64,000 nucleotides of DNA from Desulfovibrio desulfuricans DSM 642 (GTDB taxonomy: Bacteria > Desulfobacterota > Desulfovibrionia > Desulfovibrionales > Desulfovibrionaceae), in assembly GCF_000420465.1 (NCBI RefSeq), contig NZ_ATUZ01000011.1, forward strand, positions 744,001 to 808,000, written 5' to 3'. The notes beneath the pieces are model-generated. The model ran no database searches, was not told the origin of the DNA, and saw only the letters and a list, made by a program, of their open reading frames with translations. Of the stretch, positions 20,403-29,377 are shown piece after piece (the first letter of the stretch is position 1; every line of letters begins with the position of its first letter). Made by a program: the position numbers and the translations under genes.

Positions 20403-22967
20403 CTAATGATATTCGCCATTGAGGAACTTGGTGGCATAGGATTGCACTGCTGCATCGTCCACCATGAGCATGTCCATCTGGCGGGTCATTATCAGGAGTC
20501 GTCCCAGTTGATCCAGGCGCGCGCACAGCTCATGCCTGGGGTATTTCTGGTAACGTGCCCGCAGTCTATCACCCGTTATCTCAACGGTAAAGCCCAGCTC
20601 TTTGAGGATCAGGCCTATGCACTGCACACGCCTTACGCGCTGGGCATTGGCGGCAGCGCCTCCGGCAAATTCAAAGCGGATGTAGTTCTTGCTCAGGGTT
20701 TCGCCGCACCAGCAGTCAAGAATGGCGTAGTGGTAGCCTACTCGGGACGAAAAATTGAGATAGCGGTCTGAAACTATGGCATAGCTGCGCTGGCCGAAGC
20801 GTGAACAGCCCTCCTCATTGCAGCCAATCGCGGTTTGCCCCATGACCGAAAGAAACCCGCGCATGTTTACAGGCCGTGGGCCACGAGCCTGCACCGCCGG
20901 ATTGAGCATGCCGTCAAGCACGCACTTGAAAGGCACGCTCAGCACATCGTTTGGCGTTACTTGGCGGGATTCCGGATTGCGCAGCCCGCCGCCCAGATCA
21001 ATCACATGCAGATCAAGCGGCACCGTGCAGACCAGCTTGCTGGCAACGCCTGCGCAGTGATCCGTAACCCTGTCGGATATCTGGAACATCTGGGAATAGC
21101 TCAATTCGTGCACATAGCGCATGATGTCGTGCAGCGATGTGCAGTGGCGGGGCGTGAATGTATCCGCGCGCGGATCCACCAGATGCAGTGGCAGAATATA
21201 GGGTGCGATGCGCCGTAAAAGCACCAGAGCCGGGCTGCTGGGTCTGGCCTGAGGCTTCACCAGCCGCAGGGTCAGCAGTTCCTGCACTTCGCCGTCAAAA
21301 ATTCTGCCGGTGAGCGCATCCACTGTGACAATCTGCTCCTCGGCCAGAATACTGTTGGCGCCCGGCAGGTTCATAATGGTAGGCACGCCAAATTCGCGGC
21401 AAATGGAAGCCATGTGGCCGGTAAGACTGCCTGTTTCTGCAATGATGGCCGAGGCGCGGCGCATGGCCGCCATGGCGTTGGGCGAGGAGTGGGCAAGCAG
21501 CATGACGGCCCCTTCGGGAAAGTGCGTCATGTCTTCCCCTTCGCCCACATGAATAACAGGGCCGCACCCCACGCCCCGCGCGGCAATGTCGCCACCTGAG
21601 AGCAGGGGGCGCAGGTGGCGCAGGGTCGGGGCAGAATGTTCCTCGGAGGCGCTGTCCAGCCCCATGGGGCGGGTTTGCAGCAAAATAATCTGATCGTCTT
21701 CGTCCACGGCCCATTCCATATCCTGCGGATACTGGTAGTGCCGTTCGAGTTCCATGACCATTTCTGCCAGTCTGCGCACCTGATCATCGCTGAGGCAGGG
21801 AACATCGCGCAGGGGATCGGGCACGGATTCGAGCGTGCTTTCCACAAGGCCGGTCTTGGTGCGCACAAGGCGCAGCCGCACTGTTTTGTGGGCAATGGTG
21901 GCCATGGTGATCTTTTTTGTGGCGCGGGAAACAAGCCACTGGTCGGGTGTTCCCGAGCCGTCCACGACCATTTCGCCCAGACCCCACAGGCCGTTGATGA
22001 CAGTGGCGTTGGAGCGCAGGTCTACCGGATGACGGGAAAAAGCCACGCCAGCTGCCTTGGCCCGTACCATTTCAACACAGCAAAGACCCATGCCGGTGGC
22101 GTCCAGATCGTAGCCGTGTTCGGCGCGGTAAGTCAGGGCGCGGGGCGAAAACAGGCTGGCAACCACCTTCTTGAAGGCGGACAGCAGATCCTGACGGGTA
22201 ACGCCAAGGATACTGCGGTACTGACCGGCAAAAGATTGCACGCCGTCCTCGGCAATGGCGCTGGAGCGCAGAGCCACAACCACATTCGCGTTTTTGCCGA
22301 AGGCGGCGTCCCATTCCGCAAACAGGGCTTGCTCAACCTCTGCCGGGATGGGGGCTTCCAGCACAAGCAGCTCAATATTTTTGGAAATTTCTGCAATTAA
22401 CGCGGGTTTTTCGGGGTCAACAGATTTCAGCAGCCTGAACAGGTTTTTAAACAGGCCCGGCGTGCGCAGCAAAAAAAAGCTGCATGCCCGGATAGTGATG
22501 GAAAATCCGCGCGGCACAGGCATATCCAGCATATTGCGCAGCTCGCCGAGGTTGGCGTTTTTGCCGCCGACACTGTAGGCCATGCTGGCATCAACCTCTG
22601 AGAGGGGCAGGGTAAACTGCGGCACATCGCCGCGCGTGTGCTGATCCAGCTCGTGCTCAATGCGCGCGGCAATGGAATGTACGGCGCTGCCCAGAGAAAT
22701 ATCGCACTGCCCTGACATTTCGCTCAGGGTAGAGGCCATGCGCTCGCAGTGGAATATGGCCCGGCGGGCCTGCTTGCGCACTTCGCTGGTTTCCATGTGC
22801 TTGTCGCCGCGCAGGGTGGCGTCCAGCCCGGCCATTACCCCGGCCAGATCTGCATTGGCCTGGAGCAGTTCCTTGAACGAGACATAGCGTTTGTTGAAGG
22901 CGTCCATGGCCGCCTCGCGGCCAACACGAGGGGCAATGCCAAACAGTTTTCTCAGCAGAGAGGCCAT
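20403..22967 (-). CDS. PEP-synthase-like dikinase (ATP-grasp plus phosphohistidine domain) with an unassigned C-terminal domain
   Basis: An 854-residue protein. Residues 1-115 are helical and unassigned. Residues about 120-435 are a PPDK/PEP-synthase ATP-grasp domain (YSVGGKNANLGEL, LRSSAIAEDGVQSFAGQY, MEWAVDEDDQIILLQTRP). Residues about 455-560 are the swivelling phosphohistidine domain, with ETGSLTGHMASICREFGVPT placing the phospho-His at about 518. The usual C-terminal PEP/pyruvate TIM barrel is absent. In its place are about 290 residues with many cysteines (C638, C647, C716, C721, C752, C754) that I cannot assign. The layout recalls rifampicin phosphotransferase and glucan dikinases, where the beta-phosphate of ATP goes from His to another substrate. 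AAGGA precedes the start. The gene follows, on the same strand, the sigma-54 activator. Confidence 0.85.
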   Translation of the reverse strand: MASLLRKLFGIAPRVGREAAMDAFNKRYVSFKELLQANADLAGVMAGLDATLRGDKHMETSEVRKQARRAIFHCERMASTLSEMSGQCDISLGSAVHSIAARIEHELDQHTRGDVPQFTLPLSEVDASMAYSVGGKNANLGELRNMLDMPVPRGFSITIRACSFFLLRTPGLFKNLFRLLKSVDPEKPALIAEISKNIELLVLEAPIPAEVEQALFAEWDAAFGKNANVVVALRSSAIAEDGVQSFAGQYRSILGVTRQDLLSAFKKVVASLFSPRALTYRAEHGYDLDATGMGLCCVEMVRAKAAGVAFSRHPVDLRSNATVINGLWGLGEMVVDGSGTPDQWLVSRATKKITMATIAHKTVRLRLVRTKTGLVESTLESVPDPLRDVPCLSDDQVRRLAEMVMELERHYQYPQDMEWAVDEDDQIILLQTRPMGLDSASEEHSAPTLRHLRPLLSGGDIAARGVGCGPVIHVGEGEDMTHFPEGAVMLLAHSSPNAMAAMRRASAIIAETGSLTGHMASICREFGVPTIMNLPGANSILAEEQIVTVDALTGRIFDGEVQELLTLRLVKPQARPSSPALVLLRRIAPYILPLHLVDPRADTFTPRHCTSLHDIMRYVHELSYSQMFQISDRVTDHCAGVASKLVCTVPLDLHVIDLGGGLRNPESRQVTPNDVLSVPFKCVLDGMLNPAVQARGPRPVNMRGFLSVMGQTAIGCNEEGCSRFGQRSYAIVSDRYLNFSSRVGYHYAILDCWCGETLSKNYIRFEFAGGAAANAQRVRRVQCIGLILKELGFTVEITGDRLRARYQKYPRHELCARLDQLGRLLIMTRQMDMLMVDDAAVQSYATKFLNGEYH

Positions 22968-23045: not shown

Positions 23046-25757
23046 TCAGCGTCCCTGCCCGATTACAATATACCTCTGCGCAGGGCCGCGTCCGTCTTTG
23101 CGCACAAGCCCCAGCTGCACAAGCAATTGCAGGTCGTACTGAGCCGTGCGCATGGAAATATTTTTCCCGGCAAGCGCTTGATATTCCTGCCTGCTGATGC
23201 TGCCCGAAGCCGCGATGGTCGGCCAGACCTCCATGACGCGCCGATTGAGCTTGTCCGCAGAGTCCTTGCCGCGCAGCAGGGTATCCAGTTGCGCGGAGGC
23301 CTCGTTTTGCGGCTGAGGGGCAGGGTCGCCCACTGAGGTCTGCACGGGAATATCTGCGGCCGCAGGGCTGACAAGCCTGGCGGGCAAGCCTTCTGCCGGT
23401 GCAGGATCTTCGGCAGGGGGCGTTGTGCAGAATCCCTGATCGCAAGGATCATCCTGCGGCTTGCGCGATTCCTGCGCCGGAGCTGCCGCAGTTTCGTTCT
23501 GTCCTGCCGGGATGGCGTCGTTTTGCGGCTGGGTAGCCGCGCCAAGCTGAATATCTTCTGCAAGTAGGATGCCACCTTCGCAGAATGTCAGAGCCCGCGT
23601 GAGGGTGTTTTTTAATTCGCGCACATTGCCGGGCCAGTCGTAGTCCATCAGTTTGGCCATGGCTCCTTTGCTGACCTGCGGCATGGCGGCGGTCATTGCA
23701 GCCAACCCGCCAGCGGGCTGTGCTCCGCCCTCGGCTTTCAGCCTTGCCTTGGCCTTGAGAGCTTCCGAAAGAAAATAGACAGCCAGCGAGGGAATGTCCG
23801 TCTTGCGCTCCCGCAGCGGCGGCGTGTTGATGGTGATGACGGCCAGCCGGTAGTACAAATCTTCGCGGAACGAACCCTTCTGTGAATCATCTAAAAGGGA
23901 AGCATTGGTCGCCGCAATGATGCGCGTGTCAAAAGGAACGTCTTCATCGCTGCCCAGCGGTCTGATTCGCCTGGTGGAGAGCGCCCGCAGCAGGGCCTGC
24001 TGCACCTTGGGGGCCGCATTGCCTACTTCGTCCAGCATGAGGGTGCCGCCCTGCGCCGTCAGAAAAGCCCCTTTGCGCGGCGCGCGCGCCTCGGTGAAGG
24101 CGCCTTTCACATGCCCGAAAAGCGTATCCATAAGCAGGTTTTCATCCAGCGCCCCACAATTGATGGTAATGAAAGGCCCCGCAGCCCGTGCGCTGAGCCT
24201 GTGGATGGCCTCGGAAACCAGCTCCTTGCCTGTGCCGGTTTCGCCCACAACCAGCACATCGGCCATCACCTGCGAGGCCTTGCGAACATTGTCGCACAAG
24301 GCAAGCATGGTGGGTGATGTGCCAATAAGGCTGTTGACGGGCAGGTCTTCGGGATGCGGCAGATCTTCCACTGGCTCGCGCTGTTGCTGGGCATCATCCT
24401 CAGCGGCGCGCAGGCGGCGGGCCTCCGCGGCAAAGCGCAAGCGTTCAAGCAGGGTGTTTATGCCAGTCTTGAGCCGTTCCAGTTCGCGCGGCAGTTGGGG
24501 CATATCTATTTTTTTGTCGTCCCCTTCGGCGTTGCAGCGTTCAAGTTCCGCAGTTACGGCATTGAGTGATCTGCCCGTCTGTCGCGCAAGCCACCAAAGG
24601 CTCAGACCCAAAAGCAGCATGCCGCCAAGAAAGGCCCCCACATAGATGCCCATGAGCTGCACGCCCGTGCGCGTGGTGGTAAAACTGGTGTCCAATACCG
24701 CCAGACCGCCCAGTACAATTGTTGCCTGCGAAACCGGGCTGAAGGTCACCGGCACGTAACTTACCCTCTCCACCCGCATCTGGCTGCTGCTCCACAGGGA
24801 GCTGTTTTCAGAAAGGGGGAGCTGGCCTGACTTGCCCTCCTGCACATCGGATACCATGTTCCAGTAATTGATGTGTTCAGGGCCGGGCCGGAATGCGGTG
24901 TTAAATCCCGGCCTGCCAAAATCGCCGGTAAAGCCAGCGCGCACGGCATCTGTGCCTAGGCTGCGCTGGGCCAGGCCAGCATCCGGCGCTTCAGACTGAA
25001 AGAGCATCCAGCCATCGCGGTCAAAAAAAAGTGTGCGCACGCGCCCCTCATCGCCTGATGCGGCAATGGGTGCATTGGGGCCGGAGTAGGTGGACAGGAT
25101 ATCCCGCAGCTCCCGCAGATCCAGTGAAAGCATCAGGTAGCCGGCAAATGTGCCTTCCGCATCATGAACCGGGGTGGAAAAACGCAGCACGTGCAGGGTG
25201 ATGTTCTGGTTGCTGCCCTTGACCGGCACCATGGAGTAGGTCGCTTCCACGGGTTGGGCAACGCTGACGTGCCCGGTGCGGTGTTCAGAAGCAATGGAGT
25301 GGAAGGGGCCGGTGGGACTGGCAAGGGCCTGCCGCATGGGAACATTGATGATATCCCCGCCTGTGTTGACAAGCAGATAGCGGTTGTCTGGGGCCAGACC
25401 CTCAAAGGCCAGCTCCCTGTAGCGCAAGCCGCCAGCCTTGGCGCGGAATTTGAGCCGGTTGGCCATGTCCTTTTGATCCATGGAGCCAGCAGCGAGAATA
25501 AGAAGCTGATTGCGCGTTTCTTCAAGCGCCTGTTCTAGAGCAAGGCTCATTGCCTGTGACTGAAGCTGTGCATTGCGCGCAATTGCGCGATCAAGAATGG
25601 CCTCGATGCTACTGCCCGTAGCAGTAAAAATAATCAGCAGTACAAGCGCCAGCAGGGGCAAGCCCAGCATCAGCATGCGGCTTGCAAGGCTGCGATTCAT
25701 AAAGAACGCCGTGAACTCCAGCGAGCTGCCCTGGGGAAGTGTTCTGTGTAAGCGCAT
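23046..25757 (-). CDS. Membrane-bound sigma-54-dependent activator with a periplasmic Cache-type sensor
   Basis: A 903-residue regulator. An N-terminal helix (about residues 25-48) and a second helix (about 360-385) bracket a periplasmic Cache/PAS-like domain, followed by a HAMP-like linker. The AAA+ domain (about 490-740) has Walker A GETGTGKE, Walker B GGTLMLDEVG and arginine-finger region REDLYYRLAV. The sigma-54 contact loop reads GAFTEA rather than the usual GAFTGA. After a long Pro/Ala-rich linker, the C-terminus is a winged-helix-like segment (SRQEYQALAGKNISMRTAQ), not a Fis-type helix-turn-helix. The start at 25757 has GGGGAG. It is divergent from a sigma-54 promoter at 25885-25900, its probable target. 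Confidence 0.9.
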   Translation of the reverse strand: MRLHRTLPQGSSLEFTAFFMNRSLASRMLMLGLPLLALVLLIIFTATGSSIEAILDRAIARNAQLQSQAMSLALEQALEETRNQLLILAAGSMDQKDMANRLKFRAKAGGLRYRELAFEGLAPDNRYLLVNTGGDIINVPMRQALASPTGPFHSIASEHRTGHVSVAQPVEATYSMVPVKGSNQNITLHVLRFSTPVHDAEGTFAGYLMLSLDLRELRDILSTYSGPNAPIAASGDEGRVRTLFFDRDGWMLFQSEAPDAGLAQRSLGTDAVRAGFTGDFGRPGFNTAFRPGPEHINYWNMVSDVQEGKSGQLPLSENSSLWSSSQMRVERVSYVPVTFSPVSQATIVLGGLAVLDTSFTTTRTGVQLMGIYVGAFLGGMLLLGLSLWWLARQTGRSLNAVTAELERCNAEGDDKKIDMPQLPRELERLKTGINTLLERLRFAAEARRLRAAEDDAQQQREPVEDLPHPEDLPVNSLIGTSPTMLALCDNVRKASQVMADVLVVGETGTGKELVSEAIHRLSARAAGPFITINCGALDENLLMDTLFGHVKGAFTEARAPRKGAFLTAQGGTLMLDEVGNAAPKVQQALLRALSTRRIRPLGSDEDVPFDTRIIAATNASLLDDSQKGSFREDLYYRLAVITINTPPLRERKTDIPSLAVYFLSEALKAKARLKAEGGAQPAGGLAAMTAAMPQVSKGAMAKLMDYDWPGNVRELKNTLTRALTFCEGGILLAEDIQLGAATQPQNDAIPAGQNETAAAPAQESRKPQDDPCDQGFCTTPPAEDPAPAEGLPARLVSPAAADIPVQTSVGDPAPQPQNEASAQLDTLLRGKDSADKLNRRVMEVWPTIAASGSISRQEYQALAGKNISMRTAQYDLQLLVQLGLVRKDGRGPAQRYIVIGQGR

Positions 25758-25884
25758 GGTGCTCCCCTGTTTTGTGCAAAAAAGCGCAATCTTTGAGCTG
25801 AGTATAAAAAACATTGCTCTTCGTGACAAGATTTTTCGCGCAAAAATAGAAAAAAAGGCGCAATTACAGGCAATAATTATGCAA

Positions 25885-25900
25885 TGGCACAGCCTTTGCT
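25885..25900 (+). promoter_or_regulatory. Sigma-54 (-24/-12) promoter of the TSUP operon
   Basis: TGGCAC, five bases, then TTGCT matches the sigma-54 consensus (TGGCAC-n5-TTGCW) with the invariant GG (25886-25887) and GC (25898-25899) exactly 10 nt apart. The expected start of transcription is about 25911, giving a leader of about 100 nt before the first gene. The divergent neighbour encodes a sigma-54 activator, which supports the call. Confidence 0.85.
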
Positions 25901-26009
25901 AATACTTTCACATTCGAGGCAACGAGGCGGTGCCTGCCCCCGACGGGAGACATCGCAAAATGGGTAAGTGGTTGAAGTGGAGATGTCACATTTTGATGTG
26001 GAGGAAGTT

Positions 26010-26315
26010 ATGAAAAGGATGCAGAGGCTCTGGACATGGCTTACAGGTTGCGCGCTGCTGGTTGCGGCATTGCCCGGCGCGGCCCTGGCTGCTGGCGGCG
26101 GCAAGGTTGCCAACGTTGTGGTGGTTGCCGATACGCGCAAGCTTGACGGCATACTGTACTGGTGGGCTGAAATGTATAATGAAAGCCATTTCTTTTTTGC
26201 CATTCTGACTATGGCCATCATCCCGGTTACTGGCTGCATTCTCGGGTGGCTGGCAGATATCGTCATGACGCATATCGGCATTGACCTCAAGCACCGCGAA
26301 TTGTCCGAAAAGTAG
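26010..26315 (+). CDS. Small exported or membrane protein of the TSUP operon
   Basis: A 101-residue protein of unrecognised family. It has an N-terminal signal or anchor segment (MKRMQRLWTWLTGCALLVAA), a short extracytoplasmic part (KVANVVVVADTRKLDGILYWWAEMYN would face the periplasm, about residues 32-58) and one more hydrophobic helix (about 60-85). The start at 26010 has GGAGG at 26000-26004; a small CACAT/ATGTG hairpin lies directly before it. First gene behind the sigma-54 promoter and 17 bases ahead of the permease, so a partner of that permease is a fair guess. Confidence 0.75.
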   Translation: MKRMQRLWTWLTGCALLVAALPGAALAAGGGKVANVVVVADTRKLDGILYWWAEMYNESHFFFAILTMAIIPVTGCILGWLADIVMTHIGIDLKHRELSEK

Positions 26316-26332: not shown

Positions 26333-27397
26333 ATGGAATGGTTGTATATTTTGATGCCCATTTCCGGCGTGTTCATTTTCTGGCCGGGCCTTGTCATTCT
26401 TGGTTTGGGCGTTGGCATTATCGGCGGCTTCTTCGGCATGGGCGGCGCCTGGATGGTTACCCCCGGTCTTAACATTCTTGGTTTCCCCATGGCCTTTGCC
26501 ATTGGTACCGACGTGGCGCAGATGGCGGGTAAATCGCTTATCTCCACCATGCGGCACGGCAAGTTCGGCAACGTTGACTACGGCTTGGGCCTGACCATGC
26601 TGGTTGGTACCATCGTGGGCGTGGAAGTTGGCGCGCAGATGGTCATGTGGCTGGAACGCCTGGGTTCCGTCGACAAGGTTGTGCGCTGGTTGTACGTTGT
26701 CCTGCTTGTGCTGCTGGCATGGCTTGTATTTCATGATATCGCCGCCCGCCGCAGGAAGGAACGTGAAGCAAGAGCCCAGAACAGGGAACTTGACCAGACG
26801 GCCACTGGCGTTGACTGGGCCTCCCGCCTGCACGCCATCAAGATTCCGCCTGTGTTCCACTTCAAGCAGGCCAACATCACCTGCTCCGCATGGCTGCCCA
26901 TCTTCGTCAGCTTCTTCACCGGCTGGCTGGCTGGTATCCTCGGCATCGGCGGCGGTCTTATCCGCATGCCCGCCCTGGTGTATCTTGTGGGCTGCCCCAC
27001 CCATCTGGCGGTGGGTACGGACCTCTTTGAAGTCGCCATCTCCGGTCTCTACGGCACGGCTTCGTACGCATACAAGGGCCGCGTGGAATTGCTTGCCGCT
27101 CTCATCATGCTGTGCGGCGCGGCCATCGGCGCGCAGATCGGCGTTGTCGCCACCAAGTATGTAAAGGGTTACGGCATCCGCCTCGTGTTCGGCCTGGCTG
27201 TTATCGGCTGCCTCATCTCGGTTGTGTGCAAGCTGGTTGAAGCTGAATTCCCGGCGTGGAGCTGGCTGCTTGGCCCGACCGCTACGATCGACGTGCTCGG
27301 CTTCGTGTCGGCGATCTCCCTTTACATAACCGTCAAGATGGTACAGGGCGCCAAGGCGGAAATTGCCGCCAAGAAGAACCAGCCCGCGGCCAACTAG
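26333..27397 (+). CDS. TSUP (TauE/SafE) family permease
   Basis: A 354-residue inner-membrane protein with about eight to nine helices in two repeats, the TSUP layout. Both halves carry the glycine-rich motif: GVGIIGGFFGMGGAWMVTPG in the first and AGILGIGGGLIRMPAL in the second, each followed by a GTD(V/L) loop. TSUP members export or import sulfite, sulfonates, sulfoacetate or related anions; the substrate here is not determinable. A cytoplasmic, charged insert (about residues 140-175) separates the halves. GGAGG precedes the ATG. Second gene of the sigma-54 operon. Confidence 0.92.
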   Translation: MEWLYILMPISGVFIFWPGLVILGLGVGIIGGFFGMGGAWMVTPGLNILGFPMAFAIGTDVAQMAGKSLISTMRHGKFGNVDYGLGLTMLVGTIVGVEVGAQMVMWLERLGSVDKVVRWLYVVLLVLLAWLVFHDIAARRRKEREARAQNRELDQTATGVDWASRLHAIKIPPVFHFKQANITCSAWLPIFVSFFTGWLAGILGIGGGLIRMPALVYLVGCPTHLAVGTDLFEVAISGLYGTASYAYKGRVELLAALIMLCGAAIGAQIGVVATKYVKGYGIRLVFGLAVIGCLISVVCKLVEAEFPAWSWLLGPTATIDVLGFVSAISLYITVKMVQGAKAEIAAKKNQPAAN

Positions 27398-27410: not shown

Positions 27411-28007
27411 ATGAAGATTCGTAACCTGATGCTTATGCTGGCGATGGCCTTCTCTGTTGCATTGCTCACCGGCTGCAACTTCGACGGAGGCGTGGAACAG
27501 GGACGCTGCGTGGCCTTTGATGCCACAGCCAAAACCCTCACCATCGTGGTGGACGTGACGCACGATCAGTTTAACCCGCACTACAGTGGCGGCACGCATA
27601 CCTTCAAGCTGCCTGTGGAATCCAAAGACATGGGCCCGAGCCCCAGTGTGGGCGGCCGCCTGATGATCGACCTGGTCAAGAACACCGTGCTTATCTATGA
27701 CCAGAAGACCAGCAGCGTACGCGAACTGGCCGTGCAGTTCACTGATGTGGAAAAGAACGTCGGCTCCAACCATCCCAAGGTCAAGGGCAAGACCTTCCCC
27801 ATTATCGACAAGGAACAGCAGACCGTCACCGTGTACTCTGGCCGTCAGAAGTCTTTGATTACCTTCAAGATTCCTGCTGAAGCCCAGGACTACCCGGCCT
27901 ATGTGTGGACCGCTGGCGACGAAATGCGCATTGCCTACCGCAATGCCGACAAGGCCCAGTCCATGCGTATCATGAACGTGTCCAAGACCAACATCTTCAA
28001 GAAGTAA
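27411..28007 (+). CDS. Lipoprotein of the TSUP operon
   Basis: A 198-residue lipoprotein: a signal peptide with lipobox LLTGC (Cys at residue 22) and then a soluble, beta-rich domain with repeated patterns of alternating hydrophobic residues. It may belong to the DUF4881 family known mainly from Desulfovibrio relatives, but I am unsure. AAGGAG lies 13 bases upstream of the ATG at 27411. It follows the permease by 13 bases and should sit on the periplasmic side of the envelope, perhaps as a sensor or binding partner of the permease. Function unknown. Confidence 0.8.
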   Translation: MKIRNLMLMLAMAFSVALLTGCNFDGGVEQGRCVAFDATAKTLTIVVDVTHDQFNPHYSGGTHTFKLPVESKDMGPSPSVGGRLMIDLVKNTVLIYDQKTSSVRELAVQFTDVEKNVGSNHPKVKGKTFPIIDKEQQTVTVYSGRQKSLITFKIPAEAQDYPAYVWTAGDEMRIAYRNADKAQSMRIMNVSKTNIFKK

Positions 28008-28100: not shown

Positions 28101-28412
28101 ATGAACAGTTACCGTCAGACCCTCTATTCCAGCATAATCCGGGTTGCGGCCAACGCAGTCATGGTTGGCGCGATCTTTGTGGGCATGTATCAGTCGGCCC
28201 ACAGTTCTGGGGCCTCGGAACTGGTGTTCTGCGCATGGTTTTTTGGCATCACGGTGCCTACGTGGGCAGGGGCCTTCTGGCTCACCAAAAAGGTGCGCCA
28301 GATATATCCCGCCGAGTTTCAGAGCCTTGTGGAACTGCCGCGCCTTGGGCAGCGGCTTGTAAGCTGGCACGTGGCCGAAACGTCCATGTGCCCCGTCATT
28401 GATCGCCGATAA
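28101..28412 (+). CDS. Small membrane protein with two helices
   Basis: A 103-residue protein with two predicted membrane helices (about residues 13-32 and 42-62) and a cytoplasmic tail ending in SMCPVIDRR. Family not recognised. CAGGAG precedes the ATG at 28101. It lies 93 bases after the lipoprotein gene and 14 bases before the next gene, in the same direction. The gap of 93 bases has a GC-rich inverted region but no clear terminator. Confidence 0.7.
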   Translation: MNSYRQTLYSSIIRVAANAVMVGAIFVGMYQSAHSSGASELVFCAWFFGITVPTWAGAFWLTKKVRQIYPAEFQSLVELPRLGQRLVSWHVAETSMCPVIDRR

Positions 28413-28426
28413 ACGGGAGCAGCAGC

Positions 28427-29377
28427 ATGTCGTGTGTCATGACCATACCACAGGCGGGCAGGAAGGAACCTATGGGGGAATTCATCAAGAGTCAGGGTTG
28501 GCAGAACTGCCTCCAGACCCGAGCCCGGCAGCGTTATTGGGGTGCCCTGTGCGCCCTGTTGCTGGGTTTTGCCCTGCTGGGAATGCTTGACGGCCTGCAA
28601 GGCCTTACAAGGTCTGGCGCGGATGTGATCGAATTGCTGCCCGGCGGCAGCGTGTCCATATCCGGGCCGCTGACCATCAAAAATCCCGTCAACAGCGACC
28701 TCAAGGCGCAATTTACCCCGGAAAATCCGGCCCTCTTTTATGATCTGGAAGGATTCTTTGCGGGCTACTGGTTTGGCAACGGCATGTGGCGAGGCAGTGT
28801 GCGCGCCGATGCCGTGGCGGAACCCGGCAGTTACGCCCTGAAAGTTTCTTTCAGGGGTGCGGCTGCCAGCACCACGCAACACTATACTGTTGTCGTGCAT
28901 GCCGATGAAACCGCCATGCGGGCCGCGTCTTCCTCATATTTGCGACGCATTACCGGCTATAACCCCTTTGTGCTGGCCGCGGGATGCTGCGGTCTGGCCC
29001 TGCTGGGCGGGGTTGTGGTGTTCAGGCTTGGCAGCAAGTACATACGCCAGCTGACAACCCTTGGCTGCGGAGAAATCGTGCGCGTGGAACAGAATGCTGA
29101 CACTGCCGTGAAAGCGCAATCCGGCCACATCTGGTGCCTGCTGTATGGTCTGCGCGCGCCCGCAAAGGGAACGCCCTGCGCCGTTTATGATGCGCAAGGC
29201 ATGCCCCTTGGCACTGCCCGCGCCGAAGAAGCAAAGAACGGCACGCTTGAACTGAATTTTGACTCAATCTCAAGCCCGGCGGCAGAAGCCGGTGCGACCA
29301 ATACCGCCGTTCGTCCTGGCTGTCTTGTCCAATTGCGGCCCCCAAGGCCGCTCTCTCCTCTGGTCAAAGACAGATAA
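28427..29377 (+). CDS. Membrane protein with a large periplasmic domain, TSUP operon
   Basis: A 316-residue protein of unrecognised family. One helix near residues 43-62 and one near 181-203 enclose a periplasmic domain of about 120 residues with beta-sandwich-like patterning (SVSISGPLTIKNPVNSDLKA, YALKVSFRGAAASTTQHYTV). A cytoplasmic C-terminal part of about 110 residues follows (VYDAQGMPLGTARAEEAKNG). GGGAG lies 7 bases before the ATG. Last gene of the run behind the sigma-54 promoter. The shape suggests an envelope sensor or scaffold; no catalytic motif is seen. Confidence 0.75.
   Translation: MSCVMTIPQAGRKEPMGEFIKSQGWQNCLQTRARQRYWGALCALLLGFALLGMLDGLQGLTRSGADVIELLPGGSVSISGPLTIKNPVNSDLKAQFTPENPALFYDLEGFFAGYWFGNGMWRGSVRADAVAEPGSYALKVSFRGAAASTTQHYTVVVHADETAMRAASSSYLRRITGYNPFVLAAGCCGLALLGGVVVFRLGSKYIRQLTTLGCGEIVRVEQNADTAVKAQSGHIWCLLYGLRAPAKGTPCAVYDAQGMPLGTARAEEAKNGTLELNFDSISSPAAEAGATNTAVRPGCLVQLRPPRPLSPLVKDR

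Follow-up and report, generated by a model that had tools for sequence, protein, structure and literature searches.

A conserved sigma-54 promoter and its probable dedicated, membrane-anchored activator in Desulfovibrio desulfuricans DSM 642

Does a sigma-54 activator that is encoded divergently from a sigma-54 promoter serve that one promoter, and by what means might it do so? This question is raised by a 64,000-nucleotide stretch of the Desulfovibrio desulfuricans DSM 642 genome (contig NZ_ATUZ01000011.1, positions 744,001 to 808,000 of the forward strand; this whole stretch is the window, and its own positions are used throughout), in which the gene for such an activator and a five-gene operon encoding a TSUP transporter diverge from a region containing the promoter. 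Sequence comparison established the promoter, the architecture of the activator, the DNA sites, the gene order and the joint absence of activator and promoter from certain relatives, and we consider that the whole is best, and quite probably correctly, explained by a sigma-54 switch in which one activator is dedicated to one promoter. The features on which the argument turns are:

23046..25757, minus strand: activator gene (903 amino acids), encoding a membrane helix, a dCache domain, a second membrane helix, a Sigma54_activat AAA+ domain with the loop GAFTEA and a C-terminal winged helix.
25885..25900, plus strand: sigma-54 promoter TGGCACAGCCTTTGCT, with -24 element TGGCAC and -12 element TTGCT; predicted start 25911.
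26010..26315, plus strand: DVU0150-family small envelope protein, first gene of the operon (NF040783, 139.1 bits compared to a cut-off of 70).

The promoter observation is real and is confirmed here. A preliminary description of the region had reported TGGCAC-n5-TTGCT at 25885-25900, and the sequence reads exactly so, with ten bases between the GG (25886-25887) and the GC (25898-25899); TGGCAC-N5-TTGC without mismatch occurs only this once in the 64 kb, both strands having been scanned. With up to two mismatches there were 102 matches in the window compared to 127 expected, and for this reason looser matches are meaningless. When the 252-bp intergenic region was shuffled 20000 times under a first-order Markov model and the plus strand scanned, 1 shuffle equalled the promoter score, and across the whole genome TGGCAY-N5-TTGCW gave 25 matches compared to 3 for a reversed control pattern. 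The divergent starts are the activator ATG at 25757 and that of the first operon gene at 26010, and both gene calls and Pfam/NF matches agree with the earlier placing of the promoter between a divergent sigma-54 activator gene and a five-gene operon. The start near 25911, also proposed before, is obtained as the same value by calculation, a prediction which rests on counting the GC as -13/-12.

A search of 61 genomes with the activator gave at least 30 loci, two of which (L003 and L031) are cut short by contig edges and lack the neighbouring genes; in all 28 others, the window included, a DVU0150-family gene is divergent from the activator. A promoter scoring at least 17 of 19.5 was found in 28/28 of these loci (null mean 0.7, maximum 3 of 28), this threshold having been picked after all 28 were seen to reach it, and 24/28 passed at a threshold of 18. 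A threshold of 13 was rejected as it was of no use as a null, shuffles passing in 20 of the 28 loci on average. Of the 134 named loci the best 80 were used, several of them on contigs that end early; in 75 of the 80 the activator diverges from DVU0150-family and TSUP genes (in L148 across a 3-kb gap), and 71 have a DUF4881 gene. When the two sets were joined, leaving out duplicates, L148 and loci without a DVU0150-family gene, the promoter scored at least 17 in 77 of 83 loci, those below being L115, L118, L120, L125, L134 and L138; comparison of the divergent region across relatives had been proposed beforehand as a check, and the promoter was kept in most of the loci. Two activator homologs of 34-35% identity, L201 (G060) and L202 (G056), had no DVU0150-family operon within the 9 kb fetched and may form a sister group that has different targets.

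The DVU0150-family gene is present in 37 of the 61 genomes, and in six of these 37 the operon is found with no activator at the locus, AAA+ matches elsewhere being merely partial. Five of the six are of the same genus (the Desulfovibrio genomes G004, G007, G010, G033 and G036), and the best site in the 600 bp upstream of their operons scores 14 to 16; an activator copy elsewhere is possible in G004 and G033 because these genomes are 63% and 86% complete. In a tree of TSUP proteins the five do not group together: {G010, G036} is one clade and {G004, G007, G033} another. A dedicated pairing of one activator with one promoter is supported because loci without the activator are also without the promoter, and their joint absence is the strongest evidence that the activator serves this promoter.

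Local alignment revealed a -12 relic in G004 and G007 (24 and 22 aligned columns, one gap; 0/200 shuffles were as good) with the -24 gone, and no such relic in G010, G033 or G036 when aligned locally with activator-bearing upstream regions; global alignment of activator-bearing and activator-less upstream regions was uninformative. Conversion of the sigma-54 promoter to a sigma-70 promoter was considered for G004 and G007, where TATAAG lies 3' of the relic at sigma-70 spacing, and was set aside, the sigma-70-like scores (8.7 and 8.0) lying within the range of activator-bearing loci (median 7.3, maximum 9.2), so that conversion stays a suggestion. The relics of both genomes also retain the word TTTCACA, found in the window at 25906-25912, at a near-constant distance 3' of the -12, and at the corresponding position of roughly a dozen loci; the word is similar to a half-site of another, Rex-like regulator.

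The sixth activator-less genome, G057, belongs to another family. With it included, the starred branches of the TSUP tree force three changes, and it had been counted as a third clean loss; this was withdrawn, as its DVU0150-family gene has a site scoring 17.5 at a distance of 594 bp upstream. At this locus (L199) the sigma-54-like TGGCATGGATGTTGCC is found some 600 bp in front of the DVU0150-family gene (3718), ahead of an intervening UspA-like open reading frame which may share a transcript with the operon, and there is no activator of the family studied here.

The activator of the window matched Sigma54_activat (PF00158) at 195.8 bits compared to a cut-off of 20.2, its lid domain was also matched in Pfam, and an alignment of 28 activator sequences showed both Walker stretches, A and B, to be preserved. 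Pfam dCache_1 remained below its cut-off (24.1 bits compared to 45) and fold comparison predicted a double-Cache fold at about residues 48-365, between two membrane helices; on this model the sensor is a membrane-anchored dCache fold, and the topology would place it in the periplasm. The same predicted fold with flanking membrane helices is found in the ligand-binding domains of dCache chemoreceptors (Helicobacter pylori TlpA, 9kpj and 6e09; Pseudomonas aeruginosa TlpQ and PctD), from which the sensor differs in having only about 10-16% identity in the fold alignments and, as its output, a transcription activator instead of a chemotaxis domain. Sequence searches of solved structures gave nothing useful, and the ligand cannot be named because the fold neighbours bind many different compounds. 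Pfam gave no HTH_8 match for a Fis-type C-terminal helix in the activator, a winged-helix model matching instead, with the winged helix at about residues 835-903. The preliminary description had a Cache-domain activator sensing a periplasmic compound and switching on the TSUP operon; this was partly supported, the Cache domain by the predicted membrane-anchored dCache fold and the pairing by locus comparison, with the compound and the switching on being putative.

The pairing of activator and operon is already known as a prediction, because Kazakov et al. (2015; PMC4641369, used here, like the other papers cited by PMC number, in excerpt) have it for the D. vulgaris Hildenborough ortholog: DVU0151 is described there as a single-component activator with the loop GAFSEA and the target DVU0150-DVU0146, having a winged helix and not Fis, divergent from a sigma-54 promoter and with a candidate motif. 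The window locus, in which the activator diverges from a DVU0150-family gene and a TSUP gene, is an ortholog of this regulon and shares with it the divergent one-component activator, the sigma-54 promoter, the DVU0150-family operon, the loop E, the lack of Fis and the winged-helix match. The N-terminal sensing region of DVU0151 is called unknown in the excerpt, in contrast to the dCache fold predicted for the window ortholog. The RYGCAA array presented below is not claimed as new beside the published motif. Neither loss of this activator nor its AAA+ switch residues are treated in the examined parts of PMC4641369, and a search for literature on genes DVU0145-DVU0153 found nothing besides that paper. 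The present comparison adds the predicted dCache fold, half-sites in register with, and often against, the -24, the missing promoter of five activator-less Desulfovibrio loci (two of which keep the decayed -12 relic), and an E or D for the second G of GAFTGA accompanied by three replaced AAA+ switch residues.

In the intergenic region the following were found, the half-sites and the inverted repeat being candidate sites for the winged helix:

25879..25884, plus strand: half-site ATGCAA (RYGCAA), directly abutting the -24 element.
25858..25863, plus strand: half-site GCGCAA, ending 21 bp before the TGG.
25838..25843, plus strand: half-site GCGCAA, within TCGCGCAA (25836-25843), ending 41 bp before the TGG.
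25772..25789, no strand assigned: inverted repeat TTGTGC-N6-GCGCAA, downstream of the activator -10; likely an upstream activating and autoregulatory site.
25801..25829, minus strand: sigma-70-like activator promoter TTGTCA-17-TATACT, a consensus match (1 found compared to 0.2 in shuffles).

In one orientation the RYGCAA words of the window end 105, 95, 41, 21 and 0 bp before the TGG, which are near multiples of 10.5. RYGCAA abuts the -24 in 27 of 77 loci and at none of the genome's 24 further matches to TGGCAY-N5-TTGCW, and the composite RCGCAR-TGGCAY-N6-TGC occurs 12 times in the 61 genomes, 11 of them at this promoter. A close form of the inverted repeat occurs 8 times in 41 genomes, with 7 at this locus (two at G011 contig ends) and 1 in G012. 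A looser search gave three further exact matches to GCAATGGCA-N6-TTGC in the genome of the window; these, the G035 composite and the G012 inverted repeat are all inside open frames of at least 150 codons and were taken as coding sequence. Of the 77 upstream regions, 51 contain TTGCRYGA (null mean 5, maximum 10); within 250 bp, activator-less loci have at most one half-site, compared to a mean of 2.3 in activator-bearing loci. A first phasing test used all 77 loci and ignored relatedness. With a 60% identity limit, leaving 9 loci, the P values were 0.02 for RYGCAA and 0.05 for RCGCAA, and with limits of 0.62, 0.65 and 0.68 (20, 32 and 47 mutually dissimilar loci) half-sites were in register at 10.5 bp, with a phase near 0 and P of at most 0.008 for both words. 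This phasing is exploratory, the motif, period and identity limits having been picked while viewing the data; when words were ranked by phasing, GCAA came first among the 46 of four letters and CGCAA second among the 53 of five letters.

Several observations weigh against a dedicated switch working through these sites. Four of the low-scoring loci (L115, L120, L125 and L134, Desulfobulbus-type) read TTTGGT at -12, without the canonical GC, and G057 has no activator yet has its high-scoring site further upstream. The window site ATGCAA misses the stricter composite pattern (0 matches in G000), 26 of the 77 upstream regions are without TTGCRYGA, and Nitratidesulfovibrio-type loci have no TTGCRYGA-type site touching the -24. 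No half-site was found in 250 bp in 15 of 83 activator-bearing loci, and a single one is present in 3 of 6 activator-less loci. On the opposite strand TTGCRY was not in register (P 0.16 in the 9-locus test), AAATC ranks first of the five-letter words, and A-runs (AAAA) are phased too, with a close score. Because A-runs are phased and AAATC scores as high as CGCAA, part of the register could be due to curvature of the DNA, and many half-sites are followed by A-runs, so that the array might instead consist of phased A-tracts giving intrinsic curvature, or be the site of another regulator. We think this rather unlikely, as sites not preceding an A are also in register, if weakly (R 0.37, n=25), and the composite is nearly confined to the locus, as is the inverted repeat in its close form. 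In the Desulfobulbus-type loci the -24 is retained, and TTTGGT in place of a TTTGCT-like -12 is possibly a lineage-specific variant.

The genome has 20 strong Sigma54_activat proteins and one Sigma54_DBD (rpoN) match, and another of these activators might act at a promoter that is real, with the neighbouring gene being there for some other reason. This is improbable, given that the gene order is kept in 75 of the 80 named loci and that the promoter is missing from the five same-genus activator-less loci despite other Sigma54_activat proteins matching in all five of those genomes and rpoN being found in four of them (G007, G010, G033 and G036, as also in G057; it was not found in G004).

Activators of the NtrC, NorR and PspF type share with the family described here the Sigma54_activat AAA+ domain, the Walker motifs, a GAFTGA-type loop and divergence of regulator and target; the family differs in its predicted membrane-anchored dCache input, its winged helix instead of Fis, its putative sites reaching the -24 element, and its loop. 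The canonical GAFTGA is GAFTEA in the window activator, and the 80 named loci have GAFTEA (42), GAFSEA (25), GAYTEA (8) or GAFSDA (5). Residues were counted in a joint alignment of 81 family sequences with 15 other strong activators of the genome (four more of its 19, namely L175, L181, L182 and L183, were missed by the loop search pattern and are outside the switch counts). The PspF positions were set from sequence motifs rather than from an alignment with PspF itself: two positions ahead of the loop, nine positions behind it, and the R of RVGG, with the loop numbered as in PspF. Loop position 5 is E in 76 and D in 5 of the 81, compared to G in 14/15 of the other activators. At the E81 position V is found in 78/81 (others: E in 10/15, V in 1), at R131 P in 80/81 (others: R in 13/15, P in 2) and at E97 L, V, I or M in 79/81 (others: E in 9/15, L in 2); single exceptions at the switch positions are also seen among the 15 other activators.

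In PspF these three residues, E81-R131-E97, form a switch linking nucleotide state and loop (PMC2745333). In NorR most changes of the second GAFTGA glycine, glutamate included, are non-functional; D or N there makes the protein constitutive and E gives no functional protein (PMC2941729). GAFTGA is not a strict requirement because several natural variants exist, as catalogued in PMC4641369; of GAFTEA, GAFSEA and GAYTEA, the literature library searched returned only that paper (GAFSEA) and one unrelated eHealth paper. Loop-driven activation is not self-evident, because the same G-to-E change inactivates NorR (PMC2941729), and a family that has E there beside a conserved promoter, with a single rpoN match in the genome, must either compensate for it inside the activator or not activate in the textbook way. 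On a rival reading, the altered loop and replaced switch would leave the protein unable to open sigma-54 promoters, making it a repressor or silent DNA-binding sensor which blocks polymerase from half-sites touching the -24. This is quite improbable: a sigma-54 promoter is useless without an activator, yet it is conserved in 77/83 loci, a pure repressor would not need the joint loss of protein and promoter seen in the five same-genus loci, and the Walker stretches are preserved. That the promoter is a chance resemblance, short motifs being common as the 102 window matches at two mismatches illustrate, is scarcely credible for a score that 1 of 20000 shuffles reached, with place and direction conserved in 28/28 and 77/83 loci.

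For the dedicated switch we infer the protein bound at the sites, the signal, the autoregulation and the direction of control as follows. The activator would be held in the inner membrane by its two helices, with the dCache sensor between them, and its C-terminal winged helix would bind the RYGCAA half-sites, which lie along one DNA face, beginning near the start of the activator gene and reaching the -24. A periplasmic ligand at the dCache domain would cause the AAA+ ring to engage the sigma-54 polymerase waiting at 25885-25900, thereby opening the promoter from which the five-gene TSUP operon is read, and binding at 25772-25789 would probably limit the activator's own transcription. More tentatively, one-face half-sites touching the -24 and the altered loop may be read jointly as a membrane-tethered activator which possibly needs no distant looped enhancer and uses a rewired AAA+ loop. 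Its winged-helix domains would present the promoter to the AAA+ ring held at the membrane, and a variant opening mechanism would have the glutamate moved from before GAFTGA into it, with the E81-R131-E97 switch replaced.

The remaining genes of the locus are:

26333..27397, plus strand: TSUP (TauE/SafE) transporter (PF01925, 151.6 bits compared to 32.6).
27411..28007, plus strand: DUF4881 protein with a lipoprotein-like signal (PF16222, 249.8 bits; searched from 27405).
28101..28412, plus strand: hypothetical protein A of the operon, present in 37/80 named loci.
28427..29377, plus strand: hypothetical protein B of the operon, present in 57/80 named loci.
20403..22967, minus strand: PEP-synthase-like protein behind the activator (PF01326 and PF00391).

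A Pfam search of the PEP-synthase-like protein matched the PPDK_N and PEP-utilizers domains and did not find the C-terminal PEP-binding domain; its gene is near the activator in 50/80 named loci. Scanning for terminators within the operon and beyond it gave 2 matches compared to 3.8 in shuffles; with fewer matches than in shuffles, the scan is uninformative on where the operon ends.

Sigma-54 activators are usually described as looping from upstream sites (PMC7175178), and this locus is a natural test of looping, as what appear to be half-sites continue in register right up to its promoter. It is equally a natural test of the loop rule, with E or D in 81/81 family sequences beside a conserved sigma-54 promoter although E inactivates NorR, and the activator-less loci are a natural knock-out. 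Most worth specialist attention are the replacement of loop and switch residues and the site array abutting the promoter.

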